NCBI GenBank assembly: GCA_001941225.1
Contig: MSHM01000023.1
Location: 128,888 to 190,937 of the forward strand
Direction: 5' to 3'
Source: Oscillospiraceae bacterium Zagget12
GTDB taxonomy: Bacteria > Bacillota > Clostridia > UBA1381
Length of the DNA stretch: 62,050 nt
A program made the position numbers and the translations under genes. The notes beneath the pieces are model-generated. The model was given only the letters and a program-made list of their open reading frames with translations. It had not been told where the DNA came from and made no database searches. Below, in pieces: positions 28,735 through 35,683 of the stretch (position 1 is its first letter; every line of letters starts with the position of its first letter).

Positions 28735-30156
28735 ATGGCAAAACTGATTACAAAGGAGCAGACAGCGCGCCAGCAAAGCTTTATAATGAAACTGAAAGAG
28801 GAAAATATGCGCTATGCCGCGCAAAACGGTCATTCAAGGCTTGCGCTTACGGAAACCTACGGCTGTCAGCAAAACGAGAACGACACCGAACGCATACGCG
28901 GTATGCTGAAGGAGGCGGGATTTGAATTCACTTCCGATACCAATGCGGCGGATATTGTTATATATAATACCTGCGCCGTCCGTGAAAACGCGGAGCAGAA
29001 GGTTTTCGGCAGACTCGGAATTTTAAAGCATATAAAGGAAAACCGTCGGGATATGATTATCGGCGTATGCGGCTGTATGGTTCAGCAGGAGCATATCACC
29101 GAGAAGATTAAAAGAGTGCATGAGCATGTAGACCTTGTTTTCGGCACTCACGCGCTGTATAAGATGCCGGAGCTTTTGTATAAGGCTATGCACGAAAAAA
29201 AGACAGTCGTTGATATAGAGCAGAGCGACGGCGCGATAGCCGAGGATATTCCGATGCTGCGCGACGACTCAAATAAAGCGTGGGTATCGGTGATGTACGG
29301 CTGCAATAATTTTTGCTCATACTGCATAGTACCGTATGTGCGCGGACGCGAAAGGAGCAGAACTCCCGACGCCGTACTGCGCGAGGTAAGAGAGCTGGCG
29401 GCAAAGGGCTGCACCGAGATTTCACTTCTCGGGCAAAACGTAAATTCCTACGGCAAGGACCTTGATACGGAAACGGATTTTTCCGACCTTATCCGAATGG
29501 TAAACGATATAGACGGAGTGGAGCGTATACGCTTTATGACGTCGCACCCGAAGGATTTAAGCGATAAGCTCATTCACACAATCGCGGAATGTGATAAGGT
29601 GTGCAAGCAGCTGCATCTTCCGTTCCAGGCGGGTTCGGATAATATCCTCAGGCAAATGAACAGAAAATATACCAAGGCGGAATATCTTGAAAAAATCGAA
29701 AAGGTTAAGAAAGAAATTCCGAATATTTCGCTTTCCACAGATGTAATCGTGGGATTTCCCACGGAAACCAACGAGGATTTTGAGGAAACTCTCGATGTTT
29801 TGCGTAAGGTGGAATTTGACAATATATTCTCTTTCATATATTCAAGGCGCGAGGGAACGCCCGCGGCAAAATTGGATTTTGTCCTTACCGACGATGAAAT
29901 TCATAAGAATTTCAACAGACTGCTTGAGGTGCAGAACGAAATCTCAAAGCGCAAAAACGACGCGTACGTCGGGCGCGTTGAAAGGGTGCTTGTCGACGGA
30001 GTCAGCAAGACCGATGAAAACGTCCTGTCCGGCAGATGCGACAGCTCAAAAATAGTAAACTTTAAGGGCGATAAGTCCCTTATAGGAAAATATATAAACG
30101 TAAAGATTACAGAATCTCATACGTGGAGTTTGAATGGTGAAGTAATGGAGGATTAA
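28735..30156 (+). CDS. miaB: tRNA-2-methylthio-N6-isopentenyladenosine-37 synthase MiaB
   Basis: 473 aa; radical SAM methylthiotransferase acting on i6A37 of tRNAs, the step after MiaA. The N-terminal UPF0004 domain carries the auxiliary cluster cysteines (TYGCQQNEND, YNTCAVREN, GVCGCMVQ). The radical SAM motif is CNNFCSYCIVP (CxxxCxxC). A C-terminal TRAM-like domain (about 405-470) is present. The long N-terminal extension before TYGCQQN is usual in Bacillota. The next gene begins one base after its stop. miaA is 5.5 kb downstream in the same orientation. Confidence 0.95.
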   Translation: MAKLITKEQTARQQSFIMKLKEENMRYAAQNGHSRLALTETYGCQQNENDTERIRGMLKEAGFEFTSDTNAADIVIYNTCAVRENAEQKVFGRLGILKHIKENRRDMIIGVCGCMVQQEHITEKIKRVHEHVDLVFGTHALYKMPELLYKAMHEKKTVVDIEQSDGAIAEDIPMLRDDSNKAWVSVMYGCNNFCSYCIVPYVRGRERSRTPDAVLREVRELAAKGCTEISLLGQNVNSYGKDLDTETDFSDLIRMVNDIDGVERIRFMTSHPKDLSDKLIHTIAECDKVCKQLHLPFQAGSDNILRQMNRKYTKAEYLEKIEKVKKEIPNISLSTDVIVGFPTETNEDFEETLDVLRKVEFDNIFSFIYSRREGTPAAKLDFVLTDDEIHKNFNRLLEVQNEISKRKNDAYVGRVERVLVDGVSKTDENVLSGRCDSSKIVNFKGDKSLIGKYINVKITESHTWSLNGEVMED

Positions 30157-30157
30157 A

Positions 30158-30538
30158 ATGAACGAAATAATCGAAAAAACAAGAGAACTCGGAGAAATGA
30201 TTCAAAACAGCGAGGAAATGAAGAACGTAAAAAATGCGGAAATTCTACAGGCAAACAACGACGAGGCACAGGAGCTTTTAAAGGCGTTTAATTTGCAGAG
30301 AATGAACCTTGCCCGCGATATGCAGAATGAAAAAATTTCCCGTGAAGAGGCAATAAAAAAGAATAACGAGGCTTTTGAAGAAATGGTTTCAAAGTCCGAG
30401 GTTATAAGCGGATATATAGAGGCAAAAAAGGCATTCGACGCTCTTGTCAATCAAATTAATCAAGTGCTGAATTTCTATATTACCGGTCAGGACCCGAACT
30501 GCACGCATGATTGCAGCACCTGCGGCGGCTGCCACTAA
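30158..30538 (+). CDS. YlbF/YmcA (RicA-like) family protein with C-terminal Cys cluster
   Basis: 126 aa; all-helical YlbF/YmcA family. In Bacillus subtilis, RicA (YmcA), RicF (YlbF) and RicT form a complex that carries [4Fe-4S] clusters and promotes mRNA maturation and phosphorelay-driven development. The first 110 residues are charged amphipathic helices; the last 14 form CTHDCSTCGGCH, a four-Cys tail fit for metal or cluster binding. Position immediately after miaB equals that of ymcA in B. subtilis, which supports RicA. The ribosome site GGAGG overlaps the miaB stop. Confidence 0.82.
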   Translation: MNEIIEKTRELGEMIQNSEEMKNVKNAEILQANNDEAQELLKAFNLQRMNLARDMQNEKISREEAIKKNNEAFEEMVSKSEVISGYIEAKKAFDALVNQINQVLNFYITGQDPNCTHDCSTCGGCH

Positions 30539-30752: not shown

Positions 30753-30910
30753 TACGAGAGCGTTGAAAATCCCTCAGTCGATTACGGCAACAGCTCTTTT
30801 GCTACGGCTACGAGCCTTTGGCTCTACGCCTACGATTTGCTTTGCAAATCGTTTTCCTAAGTAGGAGAGCATAGCCAAAAATGTTGCCTAATTTTTGAAT
30901 ACAGTGCAAT

Positions 30911-31035
30911 CCCTCATCCGTCGGCTGCGCCGACACCTTCCCCCAAGGGAAGGCAAACTATAATTGCCGCCATTTCAAATAAGCCTTCCCCCGAGGGGAA
31001 GGTGGCACTCGCCGCAGGCGGGTGACGGATGAGGG
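30911..31035. repeat. MITE-like compound palindrome, copy B
   Basis: Outer inverted repeats CCCTCATCCGTC (30911-30922) and GACGGATGAGGG (31024-31035). Inside are GGC-tgc-GCC, CTTCCC/GGGAAG, CTTCCCC/GGGGAAG and GCC-gcag-GGC hairpins. The arrangement equals copy A at 11821-11964, with different hairpin loops. Confidence 0.7.
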
Positions 31036-31128: not shown

Positions 31129-33726
31129 ATGGCAAAAGAGCAAATGACGCCGATGATGGCTCAGTACCTGAAAACAAAGGAGGAATATCCGGACAGTATT
31201 CTGTTTTACCGTCTGGGAGATTTCTATGAGATGTTTTTTGACGATGCCATAAAAGCCTCCAAGGAGCTGGAAATAGCGCTTACGGGCAAGAACTGCGGAA
31301 TGAAGGAACGCGCGCCTATGTGCGGCGTTCCGTTTCACAGCGCCTCGGTTTACATCGCAAAGCTGATTGAAAAGGGCTACAAGGTTGCCATATGCGAACA
31401 GGTTGAGGACCCGAAGACGGCAAGCGGTATTGTAAAGCGCGAGGTTATCCGCGTTGTCACGCCGGGTACCGTTGTTGACGAGGAACTGCTTGACGAAAAA
31501 ACAAATAATTATCTTGCCGTAATATACAGTCAAAGGGATATTTTCGGCTTTGCCGTATCGGATATTTCTACGGGAGAAATTTACACCACCGAAATTACGG
31601 GCGCGGACGAAACGCTTAACGAGATTGCGCGTTACGAGCCAAAGGAAATACTTGTAAACAGCGTCGCGGCGGACAAGCTTTCGGGACAGGTGGAATTGAG
31701 ATTTCACATAGTGCCGGACGAATGTAAGGACGAATTTTTTGAAAACTCGCTTTTTGAGGAAAAAATACTGAATATGTTCGGGAAAGGCTCTCTGTCCGAA
31801 GTAGGACTTGCGGATAAGCCCTATTCCGTATGCGCGGTGGGCGCGATGATAGTTTATCTTGAGCATACTCAAAAAACAAGCCTTACATATATCAATACCA
31901 TAAACACCTATGAGGTGAATCAATATATGGATATTGACGTGAATACGCGCCGAAATCTCGAAATAACGGAAACTATGCGCGACAAAATGAAAAAAGGCTC
32001 GCTTTTGTGGGTATTGGACAATACCGAAACTTCAATGGGCGCGCGCCTTTTAAAGCAGTGGTTGGAAAAGCCGCTGCTTAATCCGATTGAGATAAACAAA
32101 AGGCTGTATTCGGTAAAGGAGCTGACGGATAATGTTATGCTGCGCGGCGATCTTTCGGAGGTGCTTGCGGGAACATACGATATATCCCGAATCATAAGCC
32201 GCGTATCGCTTGGGACGGTGACGCCGAAGGACTTAATCGCGCTGAAAATGACGCTTTTAAAGCTGCCGGAGCTTGAATACACGCTCAGTACCGTAAAGTC
32301 ACCGATGCTTGCGGATATGCGAAAGAATTTTGACCTGCTTGAGGACGTGTGCGATTTGCTCGAAAGAGCGATAGCGGACGAGCCGCCCTCGCTCCTGAGA
32401 GACGGAAACGTGATAAAAGAGGGATTTAACGAGGAAATCGATAAGCTCCGCCTTGCTATGCGCGACGGCAAGAAGTGGCTCGCGTCTGTTGAAAGCGAGG
32501 AACGCGCCGCGACCGGCATAAGCAAGCTGAAGGTTGGCTATAACAAGGTTTTCGGCTATTATATCGAGGTTACAAAGTCGAATATAAAGGACGTGCCGGA
32601 GCATTATATAAGGAAACAGACGCTTGCGAACTGCGAGAGATATATAACGCCCAAGCTTAAGGAAATAGAAAATACGATTCTCGGCGCGTCGGAAAAAATC
32701 GTGACGCTTGAGGGCTATGTGTTCGAGCAGGTGAGAGTAAGCGTAAGCAAGGAGATAGAGCGCTTAAAGCGCGCGGCAAACATAATCGCGACTGCCGATG
32801 TTCTGCTGTCGCTTGCGCAGACGGCGTATAAGAATAATTATACAATGCCGGAAATTTCCGATAACGGAAAAATAGAAATCACCGAGGGCAGGCACCCTGT
32901 TGTGGAAAAAATGTCGAAGAAAACGATGTTTGTGCCGAACGACACTCTTTTAAATACCAACGAGGACAGAATGATTATAATCACAGGTCCGAATATGGCG
33001 GGTAAGCCAACATATATGCGTCAGGTCGCGCTGATAACGCTTATGGCACAGATAGGCAGCTTTGTGCCGGCGAAATCGGCTAAAATAGGCGTTGTTGATA
33101 AAATTTTCACAAGAGTGGGCGCGTCGGACGATATTTCATCGGGACAGAGCACGTTTATGCTTGAAATGAGCGAGGTAAGCCATATATTGAAAAACGCCAC
33201 ATCCAAATCGCTGATTATACTTGACGAAATCGGCAGGGGCACAAGCACATTTGACGGTCTTTCAATAGCGTGGGCGGTTGTGGAGTATATTCATAACAAG
33301 CGCAAAATCGGCGCGAAAACTCTTTTCGCAACGCATTACCACGAGCTTACCGAGCTTGAGGACGAGCTTGACGGAGTTAAAAATTACAGAATAGCCGTGA
33401 AAAAGCGCGGCGACGATATTATATTTTTGAGAAAGATTGTACGCGGCGGAGCGGACGACAGCTACGGCATAGAGGTGGCGGCGCTCGCGGGTGTTCCCAA
33501 AGAGGTAATAAACGGCGCGAAGAAGATTTTGCACAAGATTGAGAACGATGAAATCGCGGTCGAGCATACAAAAAAGGAGCCTGAGCCGACCAATCAGATA
33601 GGCTTTGGCGACGGCGCGGCAATCGAAATCGCAAACGAGCTTAAAACGATGGACGTTACGACCTTCACGCCGATTGAGGCGATGAACAAGTTATATGAGC
33701 TGTCCAATAAAGCCAAGGAGATTTAA
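31129..33726 (+). CDS. mutS: DNA mismatch repair protein MutS with altered Walker A
   Basis: 865 aa; recognises mismatches and recruits MutL. The mismatch-binding domain has the Phe-x-Glu wedge in GDFYEMF; connector, core and clamp domains follow. The ATPase has Walker B LIILDEIGRG and the STFDG and ATHYHEL segments. Walker A, however, reads GPNMAGKPTYMR where the family has GK-S/T: codon 627 (33007-33009) is CCA (Pro) instead of an expected TCA (Ser), one transition away. That Ser/Thr hydroxyl coordinates Mg2+-ATP, so this protein should be ATPase-impaired unless the base is an error. The start is ATG 31129 after AAGGAG. mutL starts 4 nt downstream. Confidence 0.94.
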   Translation: MAKEQMTPMMAQYLKTKEEYPDSILFYRLGDFYEMFFDDAIKASKELEIALTGKNCGMKERAPMCGVPFHSASVYIAKLIEKGYKVAICEQVEDPKTASGIVKREVIRVVTPGTVVDEELLDEKTNNYLAVIYSQRDIFGFAVSDISTGEIYTTEITGADETLNEIARYEPKEILVNSVAADKLSGQVELRFHIVPDECKDEFFENSLFEEKILNMFGKGSLSEVGLADKPYSVCAVGAMIVYLEHTQKTSLTYINTINTYEVNQYMDIDVNTRRNLEITETMRDKMKKGSLLWVLDNTETSMGARLLKQWLEKPLLNPIEINKRLYSVKELTDNVMLRGDLSEVLAGTYDISRIISRVSLGTVTPKDLIALKMTLLKLPELEYTLSTVKSPMLADMRKNFDLLEDVCDLLERAIADEPPSLLRDGNVIKEGFNEEIDKLRLAMRDGKKWLASVESEERAATGISKLKVGYNKVFGYYIEVTKSNIKDVPEHYIRKQTLANCERYITPKLKEIENTILGASEKIVTLEGYVFEQVRVSVSKEIERLKRAANIIATADVLLSLAQTAYKNNYTMPEISDNGKIEITEGRHPVVEKMSKKTMFVPNDTLLNTNEDRMIIITGPNMAGKPTYMRQVALITLMAQIGSFVPAKSAKIGVVDKIFTRVGASDDISSGQSTFMLEMSEVSHILKNATSKSLIILDEIGRGTSTFDGLSIAWAVVEYIHNKRKIGAKTLFATHYHELTELEDELDGVKNYRIAVKKRGDDIIFLRKIVRGGADDSYGIEVAALAGVPKEVINGAKKILHKIENDEIAVEHTKKEPEPTNQIGFGDGAAIEIANELKTMDVTTFTPIEAMNKLYELSNKAKEI

Positions 33727-33730
33727 CGCA

Positions 33731-35683
33731 ATGGGAAAAATTCATTTACTTGACACTGAGGTATCCAATAAAATAGCCGCGGGCGAGGTTGTGGAGCGTC
33801 CGGCAAGCGTCATAAAGGAGCTTGTGGAAAACAGCATAGACGCGGGCGCGAATCTGATAACCGTTGAGATAGAAAAGGGCGGGAGCGTGTATATGCGCGT
33901 CAGCGACAACGGCAGCGGTATGAGCGCGGATGACGCTAAAATATGCTTTCTGCGCCACGCGACAAGCAAGGTGCGCACAAGCGGCGACCTTGACGCCATT
34001 TATACCCTCGGCTTTAGGGGCGAGGCGCTCTCAAGCATAGGAGCGGTTTCGGAAACGGAGCTGTATACAAAACGCGCCGAGGACGAAATCGGCGTATGCG
34101 TGACCTGCCGCGGCGGCGAGATACTCTCCTCCGATGAGGCGGGTATTCCGAACGGCACCTCGGTTTTGGTGGAAAATTTGTTTTACAATACTCCGGCAAG
34201 GCGCAAATTTCTGAAAAAGGACGCCACCGAGGCGGGATATATAACCGATATAATGACGCGGTTTATTTTCGCGCATCCGGAAATTTCATTTAAGCTTATT
34301 GCGGACGGCAAGGAAAAGCTGTTTTCTCCGGGAGATAATTCACTGAAAAATTCCGTCTATACCGTGTACGGCAAGGATTATGCCAACGGCACAATTCCGG
34401 TTGAATATGAGGCGGACGGAATAAAGGTGACGGGTCTTATCGGCAAGGGTACGCTGTCAAGACCGAAACGCAATTACCAGAGCTTTTTTGTGAATAAAAG
34501 ATATATAACGAGCGCGGCGATTACGGCGGCATTGGAAAACGCTTATAAAAATCAGATTATGATAGGCAAATTCCCTATGGCTGTGCTGAATATAGAAATA
34601 AATCCGTCGCTTATAGATATAAATGTGCACCCTACCAAGTTAGAGGTTAAATTTTCCGATGAAAGGGCGGTTTATAACGCGGTTTATTACGGCGTTAAGA
34701 ACGCGCTTTACGCTATTCCAAATGTGCCGAAAATCGAGAGAACAACGGAGGAATTTAAACGCGACGAGGTAAAGGAGCAGTTAAATCTTTCCGATATGGC
34801 GGCGGCATTGCCGAGAAATATGACAAGACGTCCCGAAACGCCCGATTACAATCCACGCAAAAATCCTTTCCTAAAGGAAAGCGGGGACACTAAAACAAGC
34901 GGTTCAAGGGACACTAAATCAGACGGCGGCTTTTACACAAAGCCCGATTTTATAAAAGAGAAAAACACGGATAATTTTACTGTCCCCAAAACGGTTTCGG
35001 TTGCGTCGCCTAAAACGGAAATAAAACCGTTGATACCCGATAGCGCAGGGGACACTAAACCCGAAACGGAGCGCGGGGCGGCGGAGAATGACACGGTATT
35101 CGCGGACGAATATTTTGAAATTGTGGGTCAGGTGTTCGATTCGTTTATTATAGCCGAAAAGGGCGGGGAAATGATGATAATCGATCAGCACGCCGCTCAC
35201 GAAAGGCTTAAATATGAGGAATTAAAAAGGGAGATAGAATCAAAGCAGGCATTTTCGCAGATACTCATAGAGCCTGTCATTGTCAGCCTTAACGCCGGTG
35301 AAATGGCGGCTTACCGCGACAATAAGCGGTTTTTTGACGATGTCGGTTTTGAGTCGGAGGAATTCGGAGAGGATTCCGTCATCATACGCGCCGTTCCGGG
35401 CGAGGTGGAGATGGGCGAGGTTGAGCCTCTTGTGCTTGAGCTTGTTTCGCAGGGCGAGGCGCTCAAAAAGGAACTTATAACAGAGAAACAGCAAAGACTT
35501 TTATACACCATCGCGTGCAAGTCGGCGGTCAAGGCGAATATGCGTATGAGTAAAATTGAGATGGAAACGCTTGTCAGAAATGTTCTGCGGCTCAAGAATA
35601 TCAATACCTGTCCCCACGGCAGACCGATAATAATAACGATGAGCAAAAAAGAAATAGAAAAGGAGTTTAAGAGAATTGTCTGA
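33731..35683 (+). CDS. mutL: DNA mismatch repair protein MutL (endonuclease type)
   Basis: 650 aa; GHKL ATPase and nicking endonuclease. N-terminal ATPase motifs: ELVENSIDAGA, SDNGSGM, ATSKV and LGFRGEALSSI. The C-terminal domain has DQHAAHERLKYEE (endonuclease motif), ACKSAVKAN and CPHGRPI, so it is a nicking MutL as expected for a bacterium without MutH. The linker (about residues 340-455) contains three in-frame copies of a GGGACACTAAA repeat coding GDTK, RDTK and GDTK. The start is ATG 33731 with AAGGAG about 10 nt upstream. It overlaps miaA by 8 nt. Confidence 0.95.
   Translation: MGKIHLLDTEVSNKIAAGEVVERPASVIKELVENSIDAGANLITVEIEKGGSVYMRVSDNGSGMSADDAKICFLRHATSKVRTSGDLDAIYTLGFRGEALSSIGAVSETELYTKRAEDEIGVCVTCRGGEILSSDEAGIPNGTSVLVENLFYNTPARRKFLKKDATEAGYITDIMTRFIFAHPEISFKLIADGKEKLFSPGDNSLKNSVYTVYGKDYANGTIPVEYEADGIKVTGLIGKGTLSRPKRNYQSFFVNKRYITSAAITAALENAYKNQIMIGKFPMAVLNIEINPSLIDINVHPTKLEVKFSDERAVYNAVYYGVKNALYAIPNVPKIERTTEEFKRDEVKEQLNLSDMAAALPRNMTRRPETPDYNPRKNPFLKESGDTKTSGSRDTKSDGGFYTKPDFIKEKNTDNFTVPKTVSVASPKTEIKPLIPDSAGDTKPETERGAAENDTVFADEYFEIVGQVFDSFIIAEKGGEMMIIDQHAAHERLKYEELKREIESKQAFSQILIEPVIVSLNAGEMAAYRDNKRFFDDVGFESEEFGEDSVIIRAVPGEVEMGEVEPLVLELVSQGEALKKELITEKQQRLLYTIACKSAVKANMRMSKIEMETLVRNVLRLKNINTCPHGRPIIITMSKKEIEKEFKRIV
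34884..35059. repeat. GGGACACTAAA repeat cluster inside mutL
   Basis: Direct copies at 34884-34894, 34908-34918 and 35049-35059, all in the same codon phase (GGG/AGG GAC ACT AAA). An inverted copy with one mismatch (TTTACTGTCCCC) lies at 34976-34987. The 11-mer is identical to the repeat at the 3' end of zur. Confidence 0.75.

Follow-up and report, generated by a model that had tools for sequence, protein, structure and literature searches.

Natural strains that have lost mismatch repair through mutS are already known. Among the Pseudomonas aeruginosa isolates from cystic fibrosis that are reported to be mismatch-repair mutators, one carries a missense change in mutS (PMC2937033), and P. fluorescens ATCC948 is reported as a mutator with a 41-bp insertion in the same gene (PMC4316635). 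Mutation-rate polymorphism also arises in gut E. coli, there reportedly through DNA polymerase III (PMC7064181). At the level of the ATPase motif, two further papers report a complete loss of function in vivo for Walker A Lys mutants of yeast Msh2 and Msh6 (PMC6254361) and a 33-fold higher mutation rate for a Walker A mutant of Caulobacter (PMC8034640). For B. subtilis with mutS deleted, the reported rate is about 85-fold over wild type (PMC11890065).

We describe here a mutS gene from the draft genome of Oscillospiraceae bacterium Zagget12 whose Walker A motif has Pro in place of Ser. The case resembles the two Pseudomonas mutators in that mutS is inactivated, or expected to be so, in a natural strain; their mutator phenotype, however, was measured, whereas here it is deduced from one residue of a draft genome. 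With the engineered mutants of Msh2, Msh6 and MutS it shares a change in the phosphate-binding loop, but those alter the Lys, while here the next residue goes from Ser to Pro. The literature searched contained no test of a Ser-to-Pro change at this site, the cited mutants being other changes. Our preferred reading, to which we assign a probability of about 0.6, is that Pro627 arose recently through one base change that abolishes the function of a mutS normal in all other respects, in a single strain recorded in a draft genome. If real, a mutator allele would have been caught outside the pathogens and laboratory lines that host the cited mutators.

The window, i.e. the whole stretch of DNA analysed (62,050 nucleotides), takes up the right-hand end of the 190,937-base contig C23, from 128888 to 190937. 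The genome, called G000 below, is a 1.90-Mb draft in 44 contigs and 77% complete; its low completeness and fragmentation suggest that it is probably metagenome-assembled. The features of the locus are as follows.

28735-30156, + strand: radical-SAM/UPF0004/TRAM protein
30158-30538, + strand: YlbF/YmcA-family protein
31129..33726, + strand: mutS, complete, 865 aa frame
31216..31230, + strand: GDFYE at MutS residue 30, mismatch-contact (F-x-E) region, intact
32986..33021, + strand: Walker A motif GPNMAGKPTYMR, residues 620-631 of MutS
33007..33009, + strand: CCA, Pro627 of MutS; Ser in 29/29 relatives read
33223..33258, + strand: Walker B region DEIGRGTSTFDG at MutS residue 699, intact
33731..35683, + strand: mutL, 650 aa, directly downstream of mutS; DNGSGM at residue 59, DQHAAHERLKYE at residue 485

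The codon itself is established: positions 33004-33012 read AAG CCA ACA (Lys-Pro-Thr), in frame from the ATG at 31129, just as the first-pass annotation had it. Its further statement that the remainder of the protein is intact also holds. Domains I-V follow one another in order (PF01624, PF05188, PF05192, PF05190 and PF00488, each above the Pfam cut-off). Domain I contains GDFYE, hence the F-x-E motif expected of a MutS1, to which we ascribe a role in mismatch contact; the acidic pair of Walker B and the ATHYHEL region are in place as well, the latter as FATHYHEL at residue 733. The one element of ATPase competence that is broken is the Walker A consensus GxxxxGK[S/T], which reads GPNMAGKPT. 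We reject a pseudogene, since the frame is open across 865 aa with one departure at the positions invariant in relatives. We also reject a second intact MutS1, as far as an assembly no more than 77% complete can show: it yielded a single MutS1-type match, along with a MutS2-like gene on contig C5. A phage-borne origin of the copy was likewise discarded, phages having no match at a near level.

In the Walker A motif, the Ser hydroxyl binds the Mg2+ of Mg-ATP and the backbone NH faces the phosphates; proline offers neither. When the protein is aligned with MutS chains of solved structure, Pro627 coincides with Ser621 of E. coli MutS, and we take S676 of MSH2 to be the same position as this Walker A Ser. 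Ser621 is listed among the contacts to the ATP triphosphate (1W7A; PMC4161293). S676L of MSH2 is called possibly pathogenic in another study, in which proline substitutions are held to be generally particularly detrimental in MSH2 (PMC8061925). We infer loss of repair, and with it a mutator phenotype, because Ser621 contacts the ATP triphosphate and because repair is lost or severely impaired by other changes in Walker A. Pro627 would remove from the ATP pocket both the hydroxyl for Mg2+ and the NH for the phosphates. The protein would be expected to fold, and its intact FYE domain may leave it able to bind mismatches, yet it would not convert into the ATP-bound sliding clamp by which MutL is recruited. 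Such a strain would thus be mismatch-repair deficient, a mutator, and presumably for a short time only.

Pro at this site is very rare. A search across 60 relatives gave 30 loci that were retained, own gene included; the site could be read in 29 of the 60, among them L017 and L019, which are cut by contig ends yet span it. All 29 have a Ser codon, as do 15/15 other genomes of the genus (a set overlapping the 29), so that Pro is ruled out as a trait of the clade. The first-pass annotation had named Pro in all close relatives, with repair still proficient, as one of the observations that would overturn it, and none of the 29 has Pro. With one genome per species compared, the change is private and the relatives are intact. 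In a phylum sample of 398 genomes, the GPNM-x-GKPT pattern occurs once, in the own genome, while 385 carry a Ser/Thr-type codon pattern (WSN, which also lets in a few non-Ser/Thr codons) and 12 match neither.

A scan of 84,980 species genomes for a similar Pro pattern, restricted to the exact motif and possibly omitting this genome itself or one very close to it, returned three stretches. L034 was rejected as an 82-codon chance frame. The other two are real, full-length MutS with the same GPNMAGKPT: L033 from the rumen MAG RUG14214 (stop-to-stop frame 876) and L035 from Silicibacter lacuscaerulensis ITI-1157 (frame 887). They belong to other lineages and use other Pro codons (CCT in L033 and CCG in L035, against CCA here), so the three are most likely separate events, judging from codons and lineages. 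As the Pro codons differ among these GKP proteins, the change therefore seems to arise independently and rarely. With two true examples among 84,980 species genomes, and our own in addition, one could roughly gauge how often this particular inactivating change occurs.

These proteins bear on the possibility that Pro is tolerated and the loop is a working P-loop variant. GKP is present in two further full-length MutS and so is not lost immediately. Against this stand the great rarity of the residue (the two real matches of the large scan, the single genome of the phylum sample) and the lack in proline of the hydroxyl and NH that the motif uses. We regard a functional Pro627 as quite improbable.

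The closest relative, the sister species G006, has a MutS with 98% protein identity and TCA at the site. This bears out the earlier proposal that one T-to-C transition has struck a gene that is normal elsewhere. The two mutS genes differ by 70 synonymous and 18 nonsynonymous codons. Of the 18 replacements, 17 lie at positions that vary among relatives; S627P alone falls on an invariant one, out of 286 columns invariant in the other 29 MutS. The small number of changes at invariant columns, together with the 70 versus 18 codon differences, indicates purifying selection until recently. A gene long without function would show more changes, hence S627P is young, or not real.

The neighbouring mutL looks intact. 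A MutL frame was found beside mutS in 21/30 loci (several of the other nine loci are truncated), and the comparison covers the N-terminal 343-509 residues of these 21. Across all of them 127 columns are invariant, and the own MutL has no private change at columns invariant in the other 20. We take DQHAAHERLKYE to be the endonuclease-type motif in the form expected of MutL endonucleases. Such a site is reported to be present in most MutL homologs (PMC11890065).

The second half of the alternative, that the base is not real, deserves the closest weighing. Here a consensus or assembly error at one position, or a minor strain variant caught in the consensus, would hide a living population with Ser. 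The assembly is a fragmented and incomplete draft, and a lone single-base difference at an invariant site of an otherwise conserved gene looks like an error too. No clear mutator signature is seen (see below), and some of the single-base frameshifts of the assembly could share an error origin. However, private deviations at invariant columns are few: one in MutS and none in the N-terminal part of MutL. Two control genes agree with this, namely IleS with one deviation (K1041R at the penultimate residue; 19 sequences) and ValS with none (30 sequences), or one (N597S) when compared with its 18 nearest; PolA and PNPase queries gave no loci and were left unused. The controls argue against a generally poor consensus, but they cannot certify one base. 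The change is also a transition, the commonest real mutation. Altogether, we infer that the base is real and the mutation recent, favouring a real base over an error by between two and three to one; the error explanation is the strongest rival, unlikely rather than negligible.

If the lineage had been deficient for long, its genome should bear the marks. We compared G000 with its sister G006 using G014 and G012 as outgroups, with 768 kb of G000 and 592 kb of G006 of which about 190 kb was aligned. With G014 (33,847 sites), 504 substitutions fall on the own branch and 677 on that of the sister, with transition fractions of 0.73 and 0.80, and codon changes are 114/306 (nonsynonymous/synonymous) versus 157/377 (P 0.47), i.e. 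there is no nonsynonymous excess on the own branch. More loci with the same outgroup gave 597 and 762 changes (transitions 74% and 80%). With G012 the numbers are 301 and 371 (77% versus 74%, slightly higher on the own branch), and at sites where G014 and G012 agree they are 143 and 187 (81% versus 82%). The own branch is thus the shorter one under each choice of outgroup, and no consistent excess of transitions appears on it with G014, with G012 or with both agreeing. The higher transition share of the sister with G014, marked in codons (0.83 versus 0.73, P 0.0003) and at fourfold sites (0.74 versus 0.56), was dropped as a candidate signal because it is absent with G012 or where both outgroups agree.

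Broken genes were counted in parallel. A first listing of indels gave 33 candidate breaks in G000 and 27 in G006, with 18 and 15 one-base indels in runs of at least 5 in the two directions; it counted several events repeatedly and was superseded by a gene-level test. In the latter, frameshifts affect 6/129 testable own genes and 2/136 genes of the sister (P 0.16), excluding two of four G006 rows, L091 and L144, which are the same places as two of the six G000 rows. Internal stops number 4 and 8 (P 0.38), and all breaks 10 and 10. The six own frameshifts are small indels in genes open in G006 (window 42982; L118:17950; L115:13414; L115:9940; L107:8834; L110:10210). Runs of five to seven A hold two of them (L118:17950 and L107:8834) and one of the two in the sister (L127). 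Such run-length changes fit a loss of mismatch repair, and sequencing error also produces them.

In B. subtilis without mismatch repair, transversions are reported to amount to about 1% (PMC11890065). Had a mutator phase lasted long, the share of transitions would therefore be expected to be higher here, and it is not consistently raised. A lineage deficient for a long time would find some favour in the frameshift count, non-significant as it is, and in the two frameshifts within A runs. It has against it the shorter branch under every outgroup choice, the transition and nonsynonymous ratios, and the fact that MutS and the N-terminal part of MutL depart from their invariant columns nowhere else. 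We consider it highly improbable. A mutator episode that lasted a few thousand generations would probably go unseen on a branch of such length.

The proposal of the first-pass annotation that the host is a mutator stands in part. The expected loss of repair is sound in the light of the literature, while the signs to be sought in transitions, nonsynonymous changes and branch length are mostly absent and the frameshift excess is not significant. Beyond the residue, that frameshift count is the sole genome-level support. The interpretation as a whole is plausible but unproven. The annotation's suggestion that the allele may have spread briefly is compatible with the footprint data, which lend it no positive support.

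The sister species shows a change of its own. We presume the Gly of DNGSGM in MutL to be the conserved glycine of the GHKL ATPase motif. It is kept in 20/20 other MutL compared, own included (codon GGT), and replaced in G006, whose MutL (L004, downstream of mutS) reads DNGSCM with TGT. By its position in the motif, this is a possible second mismatch-repair lesion, located in the sister. The G006 branch is in addition tilted towards A:T>G:C transitions: 467/762 against 236/597 on the own branch (61% versus 40%; G014, 41,331 sites), 47% versus 33% with G012, and 60% versus 43% where both outgroups agree. The share is similar across the 15 segments listed (0.50-0.77), and GC at fourfold sites is 63.1% in G006 and 59.6% in the own genome. 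The tilt may reflect a slow compositional shift and not mutator activity.

Weighing against a strong reading of the sister's MutL change, private changes at invariant columns occur elsewhere as well: in ValS of G006 (P657Q), and in the MutL of L006 (D119N), L008 (four) and L024 (ten). The presence of ATPase-motif changes in the mismatch-repair genes of both sister assemblies is, on the alignments, suggestive and not significant. That the pair lost repair twice, independently and recently, through MutS S627P here and through MutL DNGSCM with its lineage-wide A:T>G:C tilt in G006, we find improbable. Still, the MutL change of the sister raises recurrent loss of mismatch repair within one clade as a question. 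Were the double loss true, mutator alleles would be rising again and again in nature within this clade.

Two minor observations concern the surroundings of the gene and its relatives. Just before mutS, the stretch 30900-31035 contains repeats, all of them short, in inverted and in direct orientation (CCTTCCCC...AAGGG; ATCCCTCATCCGTC arms); it has many short partial matches on G006 contigs and is probably a member of a dispersed repeat family. Finally, several relatives carry a stretch resembling the N-terminal domain of MutS (31-43% identity in the examples G001:C32, G007:C15 and G027:C68) inside very long frames of about 1,800-3,100 codons, where it is apparently fused to other domains.
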